The notes under the pieces: model-generated
Databases searched by the model: none
What the model was told of the DNA's origin: nothing
What the model saw: only the letters and a program-made list of their open reading frames with translations
Program-made: the position numbers and the translations under genes
In this document: positions 34,272 to 61,375 of the stretch, in pieces
Position numbering within the stretch: position 1 is the stretch's first letter
Layout of the letters: each line of letters opens with the position of its first letter
Assembly (NCBI GenBank): GCA_900637705.1
Contig: LR134390.1
Coordinates: 558,001-622,000, forward strand
Length of the DNA stretch: 64,000 nucleotides
Source of the DNA: Fusobacterium varium
GTDB taxonomy: Bacteria; Fusobacteriota; Fusobacteriia; Fusobacteriales; Fusobacteriaceae
Direction: 5' to 3'

Positions 34272-35624
34272 ATGAATAAATTTGAAAATGACCTTTCAAA
34301 GGGAAATGTTGTAAAACAATTGATAAAATTTTCTATACCATTTCTTATTTCCAATTTGATACAGACACTATACAGTGTGGCAGATATGGTAATAGTAGGA
34401 AGATATGCTTCTACTACAAGTATGTCAGGAGTTGCTAATGGTTCACAAGTACAATTTGTAATAACTAATATGGTAATGGGATTTACTGTAGGAGGAACAG
34501 TTCTTGTAGCTCAATATCTAGGTATAGGAAATAGAAAAGCTATGAAAGAAACAATAAGCACCTTATTTACAACTTTGTTGCTAATAGCAGTTGTAATAAC
34601 TACTTTGATGATATTTACTATGGATCCATTATTAAAATTGATTCAGACTCCAGCAGAAGCTTTTTTTGAAACAAGAGCTTACTTCTTTGTAACTACATTA
34701 GGGACAATATTTATATTTGGATATAATGCTCTTAGTGCTGTTATGAGAGGAATGGGAGATAGTAAAAATCCACTGTATTTTGTTGCTATTGCCTGTGTAA
34801 CAAATATTATTTTAGATTTATTGCTTGTAGCTAAATATGGAATGGGAGCAGAGGGAGCAGCAATAGCTACTGTTATTTCTCAAGCTGTAAGTATGATATT
34901 GTGTATTATTTATTTGAAGAAAAATGGATTTATATTTGATTTTAAACTAAGCTCATTTAAATTTTATAAAGATAGATTCGATTTACTTTTAAAAATAGGA
35001 ATACCTACATCAGCTCAAAATGCTATTGTAAGTGTATCGTTCTTATTTCTGATAGCTTTAGCTAATACTTTTGGAGTATCTGCTTCTGCTGCAGTTGGAG
35101 CAGTAAGTAAATTGAATAGTTTTGCAATACTTCCAACAGTTGCTGTAAGTGCTTCTGTTTCAGCTATGAGTGCACAAAATATTGGTGCAAGGCAAATAAG
35201 GAGAGCAGTACAAACTTTAAAGACAGGAATAATATTTTCTCTTGCTATTTCTTTTATAATATTTTTATTTATGAGAATTTTTCCAGAAGATTGTTTAAGT
35301 ATGTTTGGAGAAGATAAAGAAATGATAAAATGTGGGGTAGAGTATTTAAGTGCAATAAGTTATGATTATCTTCTTGTTCCATTTGTATTTTGCTTGAATG
35401 GATTATTTATAGGTGCAGGGCATACTAAATTTTCTTTTATAAATAGTGCTTCAGCTTCATTATTTATAAGGATTCCAGCTTGTTATTTTTTAGGAGTATT
35501 TCTAAATAAAGGATTATATGGACTAGGATTAGGGGCACCTTTAGCTTCTATGTTTGGAGTGATAATGGGAGTAGTGTTCTTTTTATCTAAGAAATGGATG
35601 AGAGCTGTAATTGTAAAAGAGTAG
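34272..35624 (+). CDS. MATE-family efflux transporter
   Basis: A 450-residue inner-membrane exporter of the MATE family with 12 predicted helices in two six-helix halves. It starts DLSKGNVVKQLIKFSIPFLI, has SVADMVIVGRYAST (helix 2 region) and MGFTVGGTVLVAQYLG in the first half, and the mirrored VSVSFLFLIALANTFGVSAS in the second. Such proteins exchange Na+ or H+ for cationic drugs or metabolites. AAGGGGAGAG precedes the ATG. It appears monocistronic. No hairpin terminator lies right after its stop; the first is at 36055, beyond the tandem repeat array, so its transcript may read through the array. Confidence 0.9.
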   Translation: MNKFENDLSKGNVVKQLIKFSIPFLISNLIQTLYSVADMVIVGRYASTTSMSGVANGSQVQFVITNMVMGFTVGGTVLVAQYLGIGNRKAMKETISTLFTTLLLIAVVITTLMIFTMDPLLKLIQTPAEAFFETRAYFFVTTLGTIFIFGYNALSAVMRGMGDSKNPLYFVAIACVTNIILDLLLVAKYGMGAEGAAIATVISQAVSMILCIIYLKKNGFIFDFKLSSFKFYKDRFDLLLKIGIPTSAQNAIVSVSFLFLIALANTFGVSASAAVGAVSKLNSFAILPTVAVSASVSAMSAQNIGARQIRRAVQTLKTGIIFSLAISFIIFLFMRIFPEDCLSMFGEDKEMIKCGVEYLSAISYDYLLVPFVFCLNGLFIGAGHTKFSFINSASASLFIRIPACYFLGVFLNKGLYGLGLGAPLASMFGVIMGVVFFLSKKWMRAVIVKE

Positions 35625-35632
35625 AATAAAAA

Positions 35633-35649
35633 AATTTAAAACAAAAGGA
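35633..35649 (+). repeat. 17-bp direct repeat, left copy
   Basis: AATTTAAAACAAAAGGA is repeated without change at 36089-36105. The two copies enclose the tandem array and its terminator (439 bp between them). They look like a target-site duplication or recombination scar, but an origin by simple duplication is equally possible. Confidence 0.75.
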
Positions 35650-35674
35650 TCAGCAGGCAGGCTCAGCATATAAA

Positions 35675-36052
35675 ATTAGTGCGGCGTAAAGTGCGGCGCA
35701 AGAAAAAACAATAAGGAACATATAAATGCAGCAAACTCAAGTTTTCAGCAGGTAGGCTCAGCATATAAAATTAGTGCGGCGTAAAGTGCGGCGCAAGAAA
35801 AACAATAAGGAACATATAAATGCAGCAAACTCAAGTTTTCAGCAGGTAGGCTCAGCATATAAAATTAGTGCGGCGTAAGGTGCGGCGCAAGAAAAACAAT
35901 AAGGAACATATAAATGCAGCAAACTCAAGTTTTCAGCAGGTAGGCTCAGCATATAAAATTAGTGCGGCGTAAGGTGCGGCGCAAGAAAAAACAATAAGGA
36001 ACATATAAATGCAGCAAACTCAAGTTTTCAGCAGGCAGGTTCAGCATATAAA
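35675..36052 (+). repeat. Tandem array: four 94/95-bp units, non-coding
   Basis: Units span 35675-35769 (95), 35770-35863 (94), 35864-35957 (94) and 35958-36052 (95). They are nearly identical: they differ by A5 or A6 in one run, GTAAAG versus GTAAGG in the middle, and AGGTAGGC, or AGGCAGGT in the last. A partial unit (CAGCAGGCAGGCTCAGCATA) precedes the first copy at 35651. Each unit holds a direct pair GTGCGGCG, a small hairpin AAACT-CA-AGTTT, and ATGCAGC near GCTCAGCAT that can pair. The unit is far more GC-rich than its surroundings, and its length is not a multiple of three, so it does not encode a protein repeat. It is not CRISPR: no spacers. Confidence 0.95.
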
Positions 36053-36054
36053 AT

Positions 36055-36088
36055 AAAGGACTGTATTCTAGAGTTACAGTCCTTTTTT
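36055..36088 (+). terminator. Terminator closing the tandem array
   Basis: A perfect 11-bp stem AAAGGACTGTA/TACAGTCCTTT with loop TTCTAGAGT and a T run starts 2 bp after the last unit. It is the first terminator after the MATE gene. Confidence 0.88.
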
Positions 36089-36105
36089 AATTTAAAACAA
36101 AAGGA
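36089..36105 (+). repeat. 17-bp direct repeat, right copy
   Basis: Identical to 35633-35649 (AATTTAAAACAAAAGGA); it begins at the end of the terminator T run. Confidence 0.75.
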
Positions 36106-36150
36106 ATAGATTCTTGTAAATGGAATTTAAATTCATTTGTATTTTCTGTA

Positions 36151-36231
36151 ATTTTAGTAAAAAATTATCACCCATGAGGTAAATTTACCTTGTGGGTGAT
36201 TTTTGTTATGGTAGATAATTTTTAGCAAAAA
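36151..36231 (+). repeat. Diverged palindromic repeat, copy A
   Basis: It starts ATTTTAGTAAAAAA and contains a 34-bp near-perfect palindrome at 36167-36200: ATCACCCAT-GAGGTAAATTT and its mirror ACCT-TGTGGGTGAT, with a perfect AGGTAAATTTACCT core, then TTTTTG. It can form a hairpin with a T run, so may also work as a terminator. Copy B at 36302 shares layout and many bases. Confidence 0.65.
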
Positions 36232-36301
36232 ATTTGTAAAAAAATATTTTATAAAATAAAAAAGTAAAATTTTTTAACATGATTATAAAAATAAAAAAAA
36301 T

Positions 36302-36380
36302 ATTTTAGTAAAAAAAATCATCAGCCGTTAGTTAAATTTACCGTGTAGGTTATTTTTGCTTACGGTGGGCAATTAAAGAT
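36302..36380 (+). repeat. Diverged palindromic repeat, copy B
   Basis: It starts ATTTTAGTAAAAAA like copy A and keeps TTAAATTTACC, GTGTAGGTTATTTTTG and TACGGTGGGCAATT at matching places, but the palindrome is eroded (ATCAGCCGTTAGTTAAATTT). The 36232-36301 stretch between copies, and 36381-36488 after them, is plain AT-rich DNA with no gene seen. Confidence 0.55.
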
Positions 36381-36488
36381 AATCTTAGTATCAAAAGAAG
36401 TTATACATTTCTTTGGGAAAAGAGAGAAAAATAAAGAATTTTTTTTTACAAAAGATAGAAAAATATTAAAAAAATCCTTTAAAAAATA

Positions 36489-36516
36489 TTGATGAAATAA
36501 GGTTGTTTAGTATAAA
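36489..36516 (+). promoter_or_regulatory. Possible promoter of the HTH gene/autotransporter region
   Basis: TTGATG (36489-36494), a 16-bp spacer and TATAAA (36511-36516), about 210 bp before the ATG at 36728. The long leader in between shows no clear gene. Confidence 0.4.
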
Positions 36517-36727
36517 TATTATAAATGATAGGAAGATGTTTTATTCTGTTCTTTATTTCAAATTTTTAAATCTTATATATACAAAAATAGAATGTTGTGA
36601 TAATATATGAACCATATCATTTGTGAAAATTTTAACCATAAAGAAAGTCTTACAAAAAAGATTGTAAAAAAAAGTAATAACTATAAAAAAGTTTGTAGAT
36701 ATTACTACGAATTTGAAGGAGTGAAAG

Positions 36728-37141
36728 ATGGAAAACAAGGGAAAAACAGAGAATCAGCCATTTTGTCAGCAGGAGGAAAAGGTATTGCAATTATTTAGAT
36801 GTCGGTATGAGGGAAAGGAACTTGACAGGTTTAGAAATCTACATCTGACTCTCACTGAAATCTACAGTGATTTTAACGGTCGAGATATAAAATGCTATGT
36901 TGAAACAATAGCTAACTACAGTGGATTAAGTAAAGCTTGGATACCTAAAGGATTAAAAATATTTGAGGAGTTAAAATTGATACAACTGGTGGAGGAAAGA
37001 AGCAAGGGAAAATTTAAAGGGAAAAGGTTAATATTCACTCCTGAAAACATTGAAAAAGAAGAAAAAAACGATGATAAGAAAAACGTTACCGAGAAAGCCA
37101 GTACTGGTTTTTCGAAGACATCAGAAGATAATCTTTATTAG
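36728..37141 (+). CDS. Small winged-helix-like DNA-binding protein
   Basis: A 137-residue basic soluble protein, family not recognised. Residues about 18-100 look like a winged helix: EEKVLQLFRCRYEGKELDRF, LHLTLTEIYSDFNGRDIKCY, then VETIANYSGLSKAWIPKGLK (helix-turn-helix) and ELKLIQLVEERSKGKFKGKR as a wing. The C-terminal 35 residues are charged and probably disordered. GAAGGAGTGAAAG precedes the ATG. It is the first of two small DNA-binding genes upstream of the autotransporter, pointing to a local regulator. A plasmid-type replication or partition role is a less likely alternative. Confidence 0.6.
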   Translation: MENKGKTENQPFCQQEEKVLQLFRCRYEGKELDRFRNLHLTLTEIYSDFNGRDIKCYVETIANYSGLSKAWIPKGLKIFEELKLIQLVEERSKGKFKGKRLIFTPENIEKEEKNDDKKNVTEKASTGFSKTSEDNLY

Positions 37142-37250
37142 AAAATAATAAAAGATATAAATAATACACACAGGGGAAGAAAAAAATATTGAGAAAATAT
37201 TTGAAGGGGAATAACTGAAGCTATGGAATAAAAAATTTGGGAGGTAGGGA

Positions 37251-37310
37251 ATGAAAAAGAATTTGGAGGAAAGAGGCTTAGGGATAAAGGGAGGGGGTAC
37301 AGGTGAATAG
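37251..37310 (+). CDS. Possible 19-residue leader peptide
   Basis: ATG-AAA-AAG-AAT-TTG opens a 19-codon frame (MKKNLEERGLGIKGGGTGE) that ends at TAG 37308-37310. It has its own GGGAGG site and overlaps the GTG start of the next gene (37303) by eight bases, so translation may be coupled. It could equally be chance. Confidence 0.35.
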   Translation: MKKNLEERGLGIKGGGTGE

Positions 37311-37542
37311 CGAAGAGTATATTTACAGAAAACTTGATACTTTATCCTCTCTGGATAGGGTTTTATCTGAAGAAATGGTTAAACATCTAGGGGAATGGAC
37401 AACGATAGACGATGTGGCAAAATATTTTAAAAAACATAGAAATACTATATGCTATAAGCTGGAAGCAGGAGATATACTGCACAGAAGAATAGGAACGAGT
37501 ATTTTGATTTATACAAGAAGCTTGATTTTTCTATTGGAATAA
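37303..37542 (+). CDS. Small helix-turn-helix protein
   Basis: A 79-residue protein with a C-terminal helix-turn-helix: GEWTTIDDVAKYFKKHRNTI followed by CYKLEAGDILHRRIGTS, an arrangement like excisionase or MerR-type DNA-binding domains. The GTG at 37303 is used because GGGAGGGGG lies just before it and no closer ATG exists. It lies between the winged-helix gene and the autotransporter and ends near a terminator, so it is separate from the autotransporter transcript or overlaps its control. Family not recognised with certainty. Confidence 0.6.
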   Translation: MNSEEYIYRKLDTLSSLDRVLSEEMVKHLGEWTTIDDVAKYFKKHRNTICYKLEAGDILHRRIGTSILIYTRSLIFLLE

Positions 37543-37612
37543 AATGCATATACAAAGACTGGAAGCATACTGGTTTTATGTAAAAAATAATACACCAGAA
37601 GCTTAAAGAAAA

Positions 37613-37642
37613 GAGGCTGTAGCAGAAGCTGCAGTCTTTTTT
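37613..37642 (+). terminator. Terminator after the small HTH gene
   Basis: GAGGCTGTAGC pairs with GCTGCAGTCTTTTTT (two G-U pairs) around an AGAA loop. Confidence 0.7.
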
Positions 37643-37777
37643 ACCCAAGAATAAAAGATGGATAAAAACTTATGAAAATAATAACACCAAAATTTTAAAA
37701 ATATTTTATCAACAATAGAAGATTGCCTGATAAAGCGCTAAACGAGGGAAAATAAGCTTTGAATCTAAAGGAGTGCA

Positions 37778-37883
37778 AAAAGTTCTTGTTTATGTATAAA
37801 AGGGAACTTTTCTCAGTTACCGGCTTAATTTCTACAATTAAATTCTCAATTTTAATTAGGATTTTGGAGCTGAAAATTGAGAA
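37778..37883 (+). promoter_or_regulatory. Leader region of the autotransporter with two hairpins
   Basis: AAAAGTTC (37778-37785) pairs with GAACTTTT (37804-37811); neither arm is followed by a pure T run. TTCTCAATTTT (37843-37853) pairs with AAAATTGAGAA (37873-37883), enclosing GGAG in the loop. A possible -10 (TGTATAAA) lies at about 37794. The stretch 37643-37777 holds nothing recognisable. Confidence 0.4.
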
Positions 37884-37931
37884 AAAATTAAATAAAAAAT
37901 ATATAAAAACAAACTTAGGGAGGAAATTTTT

Positions 37932-40900
37932 ATGATTGAAAAAATTATGAAGGCAGTAAAAAGCAGCAACAAAAGAAGAGGAAGAAATATAACAATAGGA
38001 GCAGTAGTAGGATTTCTATTGTCATGTACAGCAGTAATGGGAACAGTAGATGGTAATTACTTGTTTATAAAAGATGATAGTGGAATAAAATTTAGTACTG
38101 ATGGAAATGAATGGAATAACACAAATCCATATGCTGAAAATAACTGGCTTGAAAGTACAAAAACATATATAAATAATACAATACTATCAGCCAACGGAAC
38201 AGGAGATGAGGCTTATGGAGTGAAATTAGAATTGAACTCACCTAATTTTAGATTTATAAACAATGGAGCAATAAATGGAAGTTCTAATTCAAACAAAGCT
38301 TATGGAATATATGTTAATGATGGAAAAGTAGAAAGTATAGAAAACAATGGGACAATAAATGGAAGTTCTAATTCAAGCAGTGCTTATGGAATATATGTTA
38401 ATTATGTTAATTATGGAAGAGTAGGAAATATAGAAAACAATGGAGTAATAACTGGTAATTCTGGAGGTTCTGGTTATAGTATTGGAATTGGAATATATGG
38501 CAGAGGGGCAGCAACTCAGATAATAAATAGGGGTATAATAAATAACAAAATAAGTCCAAATGATAATTCTAGCACTAATAGTAGTGGAATAGCTGCAGGT
38601 TCAAATTCAGAAGGAACAGAAAAAATAATTAATATAGGAGAAATAAATAGTTCTAATAATGGAAATGCCTTTACTACTGGGATACATGTTGGGAAAAAAG
38701 CAAGAGAAGTGATAAATATGGGAAATATAAAGACTTTTGATGCTAAGTATAGCTATGGAATATCTTCTTATAATCTTGGTACTAGTGCCCAAATAAATAA
38801 TCTATTAAATATGGGAACTATAAGTTCTTTTAATACATCTAATAGTATTGGAATTTTTAGCGCTGATAATGGAACAATAGAAAAAATAGTAAATACAGGA
38901 GTTATTTATGGGCAGAATAGTACTGTATCTATTGGCGCTACTGGGACTATAGGAGATGTAAATAACTATGGAATATTTGCAACAGATGGAGATAAGATTA
39001 TATTTAATAATAATGGAAATATGACAGGTACTGAAAATAACTATGGAATGTATATAACTAAAACAAATGGACAAATAACTATAAATGTAGATGACGAAAA
39101 GAGTAATTATTCTGGTAATATAGTAGTAGGATACAATGAAGATGGAAGTGAAATAACAAAATATATGACAATAAGAAATGCTAAATTAAATAAAGAAAAA
39201 ACTGAAACAGAAAGTTTTATACTTGCAGGAAAATCAGGAAAATATAATAATTCAATATTAAATGGGAAAGATAAGACTTTAAATGTTTTAGAAGGAAGAA
39301 ATAAAATAACAGACTCTATAATCAATGCATATCAAACAGCAGTAGTTATAAAGGGAAAAAACTCATCACTTGTTCTTAATAATACTGTAGTAAATGGTGG
39401 GGCAGCAAAAGATAAAGAGGTACCAACAATAGAGATAGAAGGAGAAGATAATGCTTTCACTCTAAAGGGAGAATCAATAGTAAATACAGGGGCAAGAGAT
39501 AATGTAGCTATAACAGTTGGAGGAAAAGATAATGCTCTTGTTTTAGAAGGAAATGCAAAAGTTAATGGAGAGATGAAATCAACAGGAACTAATAATCTAA
39601 TAAGTCTTAATGGAAATACTGGAAATGGAATGAATATACTTCATAACATATCAGGATTTACAAATATGAATATAGATAATAATGTGACATTCTTTGAAAA
39701 TGTAGAAGTAACAGGAACAGAAACAGTAACTGTAGGAGGAACATTAAATTTAAGATTAAAAAAATCAGAGCCTATACCATATGGAGATATACCAACAGCA
39801 GTTCATGCTTTTTCAGGAACTAATAGTACAACAATAAAAGGAGCATCAGAAGAGGAAGCAGGAACTTTAAACTTCATAACAAACGGAATAGGAAGAGAAA
39901 TTTATGTTGATATGGAAAATATAGAACTTGAAAATATGAAGGTGAGAGCAAATTCAATTATAGACAAGGTAGAAATATCTGATGAATATATTCATTTAGG
40001 AGCAGGTTCAGACTTAAGTGGAATTGTAAATCCAAAGGTAAGTAAATATGATTCATTGGATAATATATATAAAAGTTTGTACAGCAGTACAGAAGAAAAC
40101 CTTGATGCTTTGAGAGATATATTAAGTATGACTTATCTAGGAACACATTATGGATATAATACTAGTAATGAAGAACAACTTAAAAATCTAATGAGCTACT
40201 TAGACAGCATTTATACAGGAACTCCATATTCAGTTTCAAGTGAACTTTCAAGAAGATCAGCAGGAATGTTTAGAGATATAGTAACAGAAAATCAATTTAG
40301 ACCAGACTTAAACAGATGGCTGGTAATGGGTGGACTAACTCATACTGATGGAGGAACTAAAGACAGCTACTATGGACAGAATTACCATGGCTTTGATACA
40401 GGTACAGCAGATGTAGATACTGATATGAAACTTACTGGAGCTTATGCCCTGGGGAAATATGGATATTCAGAAAATGTATCATTAGGAGTAACAGCAGGAG
40501 GAAACAAAAGCGAAGCTAAACTTCCAATGTCAAAGGTAAAAGGAAACAGTGGATATGTAGGAGCCTTTGCAGAAAACTACAGAGGAAACCTTACACTGAA
40601 AGCTGGAGCAGGAATTCAATATTCAGAATATGATGCTAATAGAGCAGCATTAGGAGGACACAGCTATAGCGATAAATATTCAGATATGACATATGATATT
40701 TACTTGAATGGAAGATATTCTAATCCAATGGGAGATAACTTCTTCTTAGAGCCATATGGAACATTATCATATACATATGTAGACCAAGAGGGAGCAGATG
40801 AAGGAAGCAAAGTATTAGCAATAGAAACAGATTCAAAATCATTTGACTATACAGCAGCAAAAGTGGGAGTAGATCTTAAAAAAGTAATACCACATGAGAA

Positions 40901-41198
40901 AGGAAAGAGTACACTGTCAGCAGGAGTAAGCTACACAAGACTTCTTAATGGTGCAGATAAAGATAATATCACAGGAAGATTTAAAGGAAAAGATGCAAGT
41001 GATTTTGATATTCTAGTAGCTCACAAAAATGAAAACAGCATAGGATTAAATGCTAAGTACACTCTTGAACTTGAAAGTGGAATCCTGTTTGATGTAAAAG
41101 GAAGCTACTCAGTAGAAAGAGATTCACACAATGGAACTGGAAAGAACAGAAACAAAGGTGAATGGATAGTAGGAACAGGATTAGGATACAAGTTCTAA
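37932..41198 (+). CDS. Autotransporter (type Va) with repeat-rich passenger
   Basis: A 1088-residue surface protein: long charged N-terminal stretch and signal anchor (GAVVGFLLSCTAVMGTVDG, residues about 23-41), a passenger of about 700 residues, and a C-terminal autotransporter beta-barrel (about 810-1088) ending GTGLGYKF with terminal Phe. The passenger repeats motifs such as ENNGTINGSSNSSSAYGIYVN, NNGAINGSSNSNKAYGI and similar beta-helix turns, the typical right-handed beta-helix of secreted adhesins or enzymes. No catalytic serine-protease motif is evident, so an adhesin or surface-coat role is inferred. GGGAGG precedes the ATG. Two HU-like genes follow closely; two HTH genes precede. The passenger is low in Cys, as usual. 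Confidence 0.92.
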   Translation: MIEKIMKAVKSSNKRRGRNITIGAVVGFLLSCTAVMGTVDGNYLFIKDDSGIKFSTDGNEWNNTNPYAENNWLESTKTYINNTILSANGTGDEAYGVKLELNSPNFRFINNGAINGSSNSNKAYGIYVNDGKVESIENNGTINGSSNSSSAYGIYVNYVNYGRVGNIENNGVITGNSGGSGYSIGIGIYGRGAATQIINRGIINNKISPNDNSSTNSSGIAAGSNSEGTEKIINIGEINSSNNGNAFTTGIHVGKKAREVINMGNIKTFDAKYSYGISSYNLGTSAQINNLLNMGTISSFNTSNSIGIFSADNGTIEKIVNTGVIYGQNSTVSIGATGTIGDVNNYGIFATDGDKIIFNNNGNMTGTENNYGMYITKTNGQITINVDDEKSNYSGNIVVGYNEDGSEITKYMTIRNAKLNKEKTETESFILAGKSGKYNNSILNGKDKTLNVLEGRNKITDSIINAYQTAVVIKGKNSSLVLNNTVVNGGAAKDKEVPTIEIEGEDNAFTLKGESIVNTGARDNVAITVGGKDNALVLEGNAKVNGEMKSTGTNNLISLNGNTGNGMNILHNISGFTNMNIDNNVTFFENVEVTGTETVTVGGTLNLRLKKSEPIPYGDIPTAVHAFSGTNSTTIKGASEEEAGTLNFITNGIGREIYVDMENIELENMKVRANSIIDKVEISDEYIHLGAGSDLSGIVNPKVSKYDSLDNIYKSLYSSTEENLDALRDILSMTYLGTHYGYNTSNEEQLKNLMSYLDSIYTGTPYSVSSELSRRSAGMFRDIVTENQFRPDLNRWLVMGGLTHTDGGTKDSYYGQNYHGFDTGTADVDTDMKLTGAYALGKYGYSENVSLGVTAGGNKSEAKLPMSKVKGNSGYVGAFAENYRGNLTLKAGAGIQYSEYDANRAALGGHSYSDKYSDMTYDIYLNGRYSNPMGDNFFLEPYGTLSYTYVDQEGADEGSKVLAIETDSKSFDYTAAKVGVDLKKVIPHEKGKSTLSAGVSYTRLLNGADKDNITGRFKGKDASDFDILVAHKNENSIGLNAKYTLELESGILFDVKGSYSVERDSHNGTGKNRNKGEWIVGTGLGYKF

Positions 41199-41218
41199 TA
41201 ACAACAATGGGGGAAGCA

Positions 41219-41512
41219 ATGACAGAAGGGGAATTTATAAGGTTCTATAAAAAGAGAAATCTTTCAAGAAGCTATAAAGAAGTAAAAGAGAAAATAGATA
41301 TATTCTGGACTGTTTTGCTGAAGGCTTTAGATGAAGATGGAAAAGTGTTATTAAAGGATTGGGGAGCATTTGAGAAAAAAGAGGTAGCTCCCAGAAAAAT
41401 AATGACGCCGAGAATGGAAAAAGCAGGACTTACAAGAGCAGGAGAAAAGGTACGATTCAGAACAGGAACAGGGTTAAAGAATCTTGTCAATGGAGCTGAT
41501 GCTGATGAATAA
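41219..41512 (+). CDS. HU/IHF-family DNA-binding protein, copy 1
   Basis: A 97-residue protein with the HU/IHF layout: N-terminal helical half (MTEGEFIRFYKKRNLSRSYK, KEVKEKIDIFWTVLLKALDE) followed by VLLKDWGAFEKKEVAPRK, matching the conserved G-x-F-x-V segment of HU, and PRMEKAGLT toward the arm. The ATG at 41219 follows GGGGGAAGCA; a longer upstream frame reads through the autotransporter end and is rejected. It lies 20 bp after the autotransporter and overlaps the next HU-like gene. Sequence is far from housekeeping HU, so a specialised nucleoid or regulatory role is possible. Confidence 0.75.
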   Translation: MTEGEFIRFYKKRNLSRSYKEVKEKIDIFWTVLLKALDEDGKVLLKDWGAFEKKEVAPRKIMTPRMEKAGLTRAGEKVRFRTGTGLKNLVNGADADE

Positions 41513-41774
41513 GAAAGAATTGGCAAAGCTATACAGCGCAATAAGTCAGGGGAAGGTATCACAAAAGGCAGCACTAGAAGAAATAAATGTATTTACCCAA
41601 ACTCTACAGGAAGCCTTATGTAAGTATAATTCAGTATCATTTATCAATATAGGAGTATTTGAAGTACTGGAAAGAAAGCCGAGATTAGTAAGCAATCCAT
41701 CAACTAGGGAGATAATGAAAATCTATCCTAAGAAGGTAGTAAGGTTTAGAGCATCGAAAAATCTAATAAAATAA
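41505..41774 (+). CDS. HU/IHF-family DNA-binding protein, copy 2
   Basis: An 89-residue HU-like protein beginning MNKKELAKLYSAISQGKVSQ; the N-terminal helices, SFINIGVFEVLERKPRLVSN and VRFRASKNLIK follow the HU pattern (helical body, I-G-x-F-x-V core, terminal K-rich tail). Its ATG overlaps the TAA of the preceding gene (ATGAATAA), giving translational coupling, with GGAG nine bases upstream. The pair could form a heterodimer like HU-alpha/beta or IHF. Followed by a bidirectional terminator. The link with the autotransporter is positional. Confidence 0.75.
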   Translation: MNKKELAKLYSAISQGKVSQKAALEEINVFTQTLQEALCKYNSVSFINIGVFEVLERKPRLVSNPSTREIMKIYPKKVVRFRASKNLIK

Positions 41775-41791
41775 AATTGAATAAAAAAATG

Positions 41792-41830
41792 AAAAGACCA
41801 AAAGAATTAAATTTCCTTTGGTCTTTTTTT
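41792..41830. terminator. Bidirectional terminator
   Basis: AAAAGACCAAA and TTTGGTCTTTT pair around an AT-rich loop, flanked by A and T runs, between convergent transcripts (HU-like genes and rubrerythrin). Confidence 0.85.
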
Positions 41831-41833
41831 ATA

Positions 41834-61280: not shown

Positions 61281-61375
61281 GGTGGCGGAGGAAAACTGGT
61301 GTTTTCAGCAGTCTTCAAAACTGTCGTGGTGGCTGAAAAGTCATTGGTAGGTTCGATTCCTACACGCTACCGCCA
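61281..61375 (+). tRNA. selC: tRNA-Sec (anticodon TCA)
   Basis: A 95-nt transcript with the features of selenocysteine tRNA: long acceptor GGTGGCGG pairing with the 3' CGCTACC, a six-pair D stem (GAAAAC/GTTTTC around TGGT), anticodon loop CTTCAAA with TCA at 61315-61317, a long variable arm, a T arm GTAGG-TTCGATT-CCTAC, discriminator G and encoded CCA at 61373-61375. The E. coli tRNA is the same length. It lies 38 bp after DUF3343, completing the Sec cluster. Confidence 0.95.

Follow-up and report, generated by a model that had tools for sequence, protein, structure and literature searches.

The locus lies in a 64-kb stretch of Fusobacterium varium DNA, referred to here as the window. A gene for a MATE-family transporter (positions 34272-35624, plus strand; Pfam MatE, E 8.9e-54) is followed by a tandem array of short units, an intrinsic terminator, an autotransporter cassette and a rubrerythrin gene. 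The array has the MATE gene as its left neighbour and forms the left edge of an island of about 6.15 kb (35636-41778) between the MATE and rubrerythrin genes.

The island and its autotransporter cassette

The extent of the island is taken from a comparison with three related genomes (G008, G009 and G010; one genome per species), which carry MATE orthologues at 93-94% identity. In all three, the MATE gene is directly followed by a bidirectional terminator and a convergent rubrerythrin gene, and the island is absent. Homology between these sites and the window ends at 35633 and restarts at 41822-41832. The empty site that the first-pass annotation had proposed to look for in relatives is clear in these genomes for the whole 6.15-kb island, not for the array by itself. 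The sequence GAATAAAAAAAT occurs at two sites only in the window, 35624 and 41779, and the island together with both copies spans 35624-41790. Judged by the sequence match and by the point at which homology stops (35633), the left copy (35624-35635) is probably one half of a 12-bp target-site duplication, and the pair is consistent with such a duplication around the island. The right copy is contained in a segment (41779-41832) that, by sequence comparison, also holds the probable ancestral terminator of the MATE and rubrerythrin genes. This terminator probably now stands on the far (rubrerythrin) side of the island, 6.2 kb away.

The autotransporter cassette (36106-41778, plus strand) consists of two hairpins, a gene for a 137-aa protein, an autotransporter gene and two HU/IHF-like genes. 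The autotransporter (37932-41198) matches PF03797 (E 2e-24) and the HU/IHF-like genes (41162-41512 and 41484-41774) match PF00216. The 137-aa protein (36728-37141) has no Pfam or NCBIfam match and is weakly DnaD-like, with a match to a phage DnaD-like helicase loader at E 0.0011. No recognisable transposase or recombinase lies within 35624-41790. The gene for the 137-aa protein, which lies upstream of the autotransporter, is found in multiple copies in the F. varium/F. ulcerans group. Searches of the window's own genome (a single contig of 3,302,398 bp) return six matches to this gene, counting that of the present island and one partial match, and 28 to the HU-like gene; related cassette genes are also present in G008-G010. 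The island looks like a mobile cassette that is dispersed in many copies. In F. varium, predicted autotransporters number 32 in strain ATCC 27725 and 44 in strain Fv113-g1 (PMC5720691).

The left end of the cassette is marked by two related hairpins, at 36159-36205 (the first, ATCACCCATGAGGTAAATTTACCTTGTGGGTGAT) and 36312-36358. The same hairpins, or a variant of them, are found at the left ends of five further cassette copies in this genome (L090, L091, L092, L093 and L095), and they may serve as an end signal of the cassette or as a bidirectional terminator. Left-hand homology to the other copies in the genome starts at window positions 36082-36282 and is longest for the paralogous cassette L092. 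Every other cassette copy examined lacks the array, and a cassette-linked function of the array was rejected on this basis.

The tandem array and its flanking repeats

TRF places the array at 35650-36054 with a period of 94, 4.3 copies, 98% matches and a score of 761, the next-strongest array in the 64-kb window having a score of 60. When unit alignment and motif positions are also taken into account, the feature comprises four 94/95-bp units and a partial fifth of 27-29 bp (35650-36056, plus strand). Unit starts are marked by TCAGCAGG at 35650, 35745, 35839 and 35933, and at 36028 in the partial unit (spacing 95, 94, 94 and 95). The array therefore opens and closes with the same block of about 27 bp, TCAGCAGGCAGG(C/T)TCAGCATATAAAAT, and has the layout A-(B-A)x4, in which A is this block. 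The four aligned units vary only in a C or T at GYAGG, an A or G at TAARG and a run of five or six A, the last of which accounts for the two unit lengths. Because neither unit length is divisible by three and the 5A/6A slip shifts all frames, reading frames are broken across units, and the array contains no open reading frame of at least 80 aa. TRF, the unit alignment and this check for open frames thus bear out the head-to-tail, near-identical and non-coding units of the first-pass annotation. Its description of a composition unlike the AT-rich surroundings also holds, with a GC content of 41% in the array against a background of 29% (0.41 versus 0.292, sd 0.041, over all 405-bp windows). A CRISPR array was rejected as a candidate because the whole 94/95-bp unit is constant, with no differing spacers.

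Each unit carries paired direct motifs, namely GTGCGGCG (eight copies in the array, two per unit, 12 bp apart) and TCAGCA (twice per unit, 13 bp apart). Such regular pairs could mark an iteron-like array of protein-binding sites for the 137-aa protein of the cassette or for HU-like proteins, but this is highly improbable, given that the array is missing from paralogous cassettes that share these genes.

The search of the unit against Fusobacterium genomes that the first-pass annotation had suggested points to a single locus. Within its own genome, blastn and a profile search find the unit at this locus only, and in the genus the same two methods give only short AT-rich or ribosome-binding-site matches. 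No relative is found by blastn in 97 other Fusobacteriota genomes. Among phages, the unit query matches only the terminator/A-rich end, plasmids give no match, and four patterns searched against viral contigs return only isolated matches of 18-20 nt. The exact 21-mer core has one match in 84,980 species genomes, which was discarded; it lies on a GC-rich Opitutae contig whose surrounding DNA is unlike the unit.

The array and its terminator are flanked by two exact copies of AATTTAAAACAAAAGGA, the left at 35633-35649 and the right at 36089-36105, which are 456 bp apart from start to start and have 439 bp between them, as had been noted in the first reading. Outside the array, no other exact direct repeat in the 64-kb window reaches 17 nt with its copies spaced 100-1000 bp apart. 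The left copy abuts the MATE flank and begins exactly where homology to that flank ends (35633). The right copy is native to the left end of the cassette, since L092 carries AATTTAAAACAAATGGGATAGATTC at the matching site, with 96% identity over 232 bp. L092, which has no array, contains one copy resembling the 17-mer; the sequence that L092 shares, CTTTTTTAATTTAAAACAAATGGGATAGATTC..., directly follows the terminator of another rubrerythrin-like gene. On sequence grounds, the array and terminator behave like something set between two copies of the outermost 17 bp of the cassette.

This arrangement could reflect a small insertion of the array and terminator (439 bp plus 17 bp) into the cassette end, in which case the 17-bp repeat would be a target-site duplication and the insert a non-autonomous mobile element or a capture event. 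The duplication suggests that the array and terminator came as an insertion rather than grew in place, and it counts against a minisatellite. The uniqueness of the exact repeat in the window, the native right copy, the precise start of the left copy and the foreign GC content all argue in the same direction. Against an insertion, the two ends of the 439-bp block carry no terminal inverted repeats, which sets it apart from MITEs and insertion sequence derivatives and led to rejection of a MITE, no second copy turns up in the genome or phylum, and the phage and plasmid searches give nothing beyond the terminator/A-rich end. A repeat of 17 bp is also long for a transposon target-site duplication. 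With this evidence, a small insertion is considered unlikely, and the mobile element with target-site duplication put forward by the first-pass annotation draws some support from the 17-bp repeat but lacks both inverted ends and other copies.

Terminator, folding and small open frames

The intrinsic terminator AAAGGACTGTA-loop-TACAGTCCTTTTTT (36055-36088, plus strand; inverted repeat I10) is a hairpin with a T-run directly after the array. Its fold of -14.3 kcal/mol (z -5.2) agrees with the earlier description of a terminator-capped array, and it is the first strong terminator past the MATE gene. Apart from this hairpin, the sole stand-out fold is that of GTGCGGCG (z -2.2). Whole units, compared with shuffles, have z values of +0.53, -0.37 and +0.21 on the plus strand and +2.0 and +1.4 on the minus strand. 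The paired motifs seen at first reading are therefore present, but the accompanying claim of repeated structures in a transcript is weak because the units fold no better than shuffles. Rfam covariance models give no match at the gathering score in the array, and all matches by E-value are far below it. One of these, snoJ26 (E 0.006, 30 bits versus a gathering score of 50), belongs to a eukaryotic family and was rejected. An independent structured RNA, which had also been proposed, is supported neither by folding (unit z about 0) nor by Rfam. Elsewhere in the window, Rfam identifies a selenocysteine tRNA at 61281-61371 (RF01852, 67.6 bits).

The small signals within each unit could also be explained by a tandemly amplified small gene with multiplied promoters that would produce an RNA of about 120 nt or a micropeptide. 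Each unit would supply an ATG with a Shine-Dalgarno sequence (AAGGA), together with a short G+C hairpin and a weak box resembling a promoter (TTTTCA-18-TAAAAT), and the last copy would be an open frame of 15 codons running straight into the terminator. The promoter-like boxes recur in each unit, AAGGA lies 8 nt before the ATG in every unit, the stop codon of the putative mini-ORF MQQTQVFSRQVQHIK (36009-36056, plus strand) touches the terminator, and the GTGCGGCG hairpin also speaks for such a gene. However, the boxes match at just 9 of 12 positions, shuffles of the AT-rich region give 6.1 such sites, and in the three earlier units the frame ends after only nine codons (MQQTQVFSR). No homologue and no Rfam match were found, and the peptide ISRQAQHIKLVRRKVRRKKKQ, read from unit 1, has no match among phages. 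The amplified gene is improbable. More doubtful still is its extended form, in which the F. varium lineage would have a hitherto undescribed gene for a small RNA or micropeptide, with a promoter-leader segment amplified in tandem before one terminator and copy number tuning output beside the newly inserted autotransporter. Tandem type I toxin genes were rejected, as the plus-strand ATG frames are 9 or 15 codons long and the minus-strand open frames, of 33-37 aa, have C-termini that change with the 5A/6A slip and ATG starts that have no clear Shine-Dalgarno sequence.

Origin of the array and comparison with known repeats

The array is probably an intergenic minisatellite that grew locally and represents neither an RNA family nor a dispersed element, an explanation held with moderate confidence, and it is read as restricted to the species or strain. 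With its 4.3 head-to-tail, near-identical units of 94/95 bp, it looks structurally like an ordinary minisatellite that ends in a transcription terminator. The statement of the first-pass annotation that no known family fits is accurate at the level of sequence, not at that of structure. The starting state would have been a segment of about 95 bp between two near-identical blocks of about 27 bp (TCAGCAGGYAGGYTCAGCATATAAAAT), and replication slippage or unequal recombination between these blocks may have expanded it to four copies. The higher GC content and the inner paired motifs speak against a minisatellite, as they are unexplained by slippage alone.

Insertion of the island would have moved the MATE gene's own terminator to the far side. 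The terminator capping the array now probably ends the MATE transcript and may shield the cassette from read-through, and the repeats themselves are probably without sequence-specific function. Of the three options offered at first reading, the 3' end of the MATE transcript with its terminator fits best, given the displaced terminator and the position of the array's terminator as the first strong one after MATE. The analysis found no evidence of a novel RNA family or of a mobile element, and the array opens no new class of system. If the minisatellite reading is true, the array is a candidate strain-typing (MLVA) locus and a marker for the spread of the autotransporter cassette in the F. varium/F. 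ulcerans group, and it comes with a replacement terminator where the island was inserted.

Among known systems, the array resembles the bacterial intergenic minisatellites or VNTR loci used in MLVA typing, which likewise have head-to-tail, near-identical intergenic units of tens of bp that differ by single bases and poly-A length. Unlike typical VNTR loci, it is capped by a terminator and stands at an insertion junction. MIRU-VNTR loci are also intergenic minisatellites, with units that carry a mini-ORF each, as do the units described here. MIRUs are dispersed and mycobacterial, whereas the F. varium array is confined to one locus in a different phylum, and a MIRU-like interspersed repeat was rejected on account of this single locus (blastn, profile).

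A second intergenic array occurs in the same genome at positions 1693-2070 of locus L149 (G000:C1:1136692-1137069), with a 143-bp unit, 2.7 copies, 94% matches and 24% GC. Both arrays are intergenic and tandem with high unit identity, although their sequences are unrelated and the 143-bp array is AT-rich. About one copy of the 143-bp unit is present in G008 and none in G009 or G010; because copy number differs between species, turnover of intergenic arrays does occur in the group. The 143-bp array is one of only two non-coding arrays with a score of at least 150 in 286 kb of sampled sequence, made up of the window and stretches chosen mainly around autotransporter loci, and the remaining arrays in this sample lie inside open frames, most of them in autotransporter loci.
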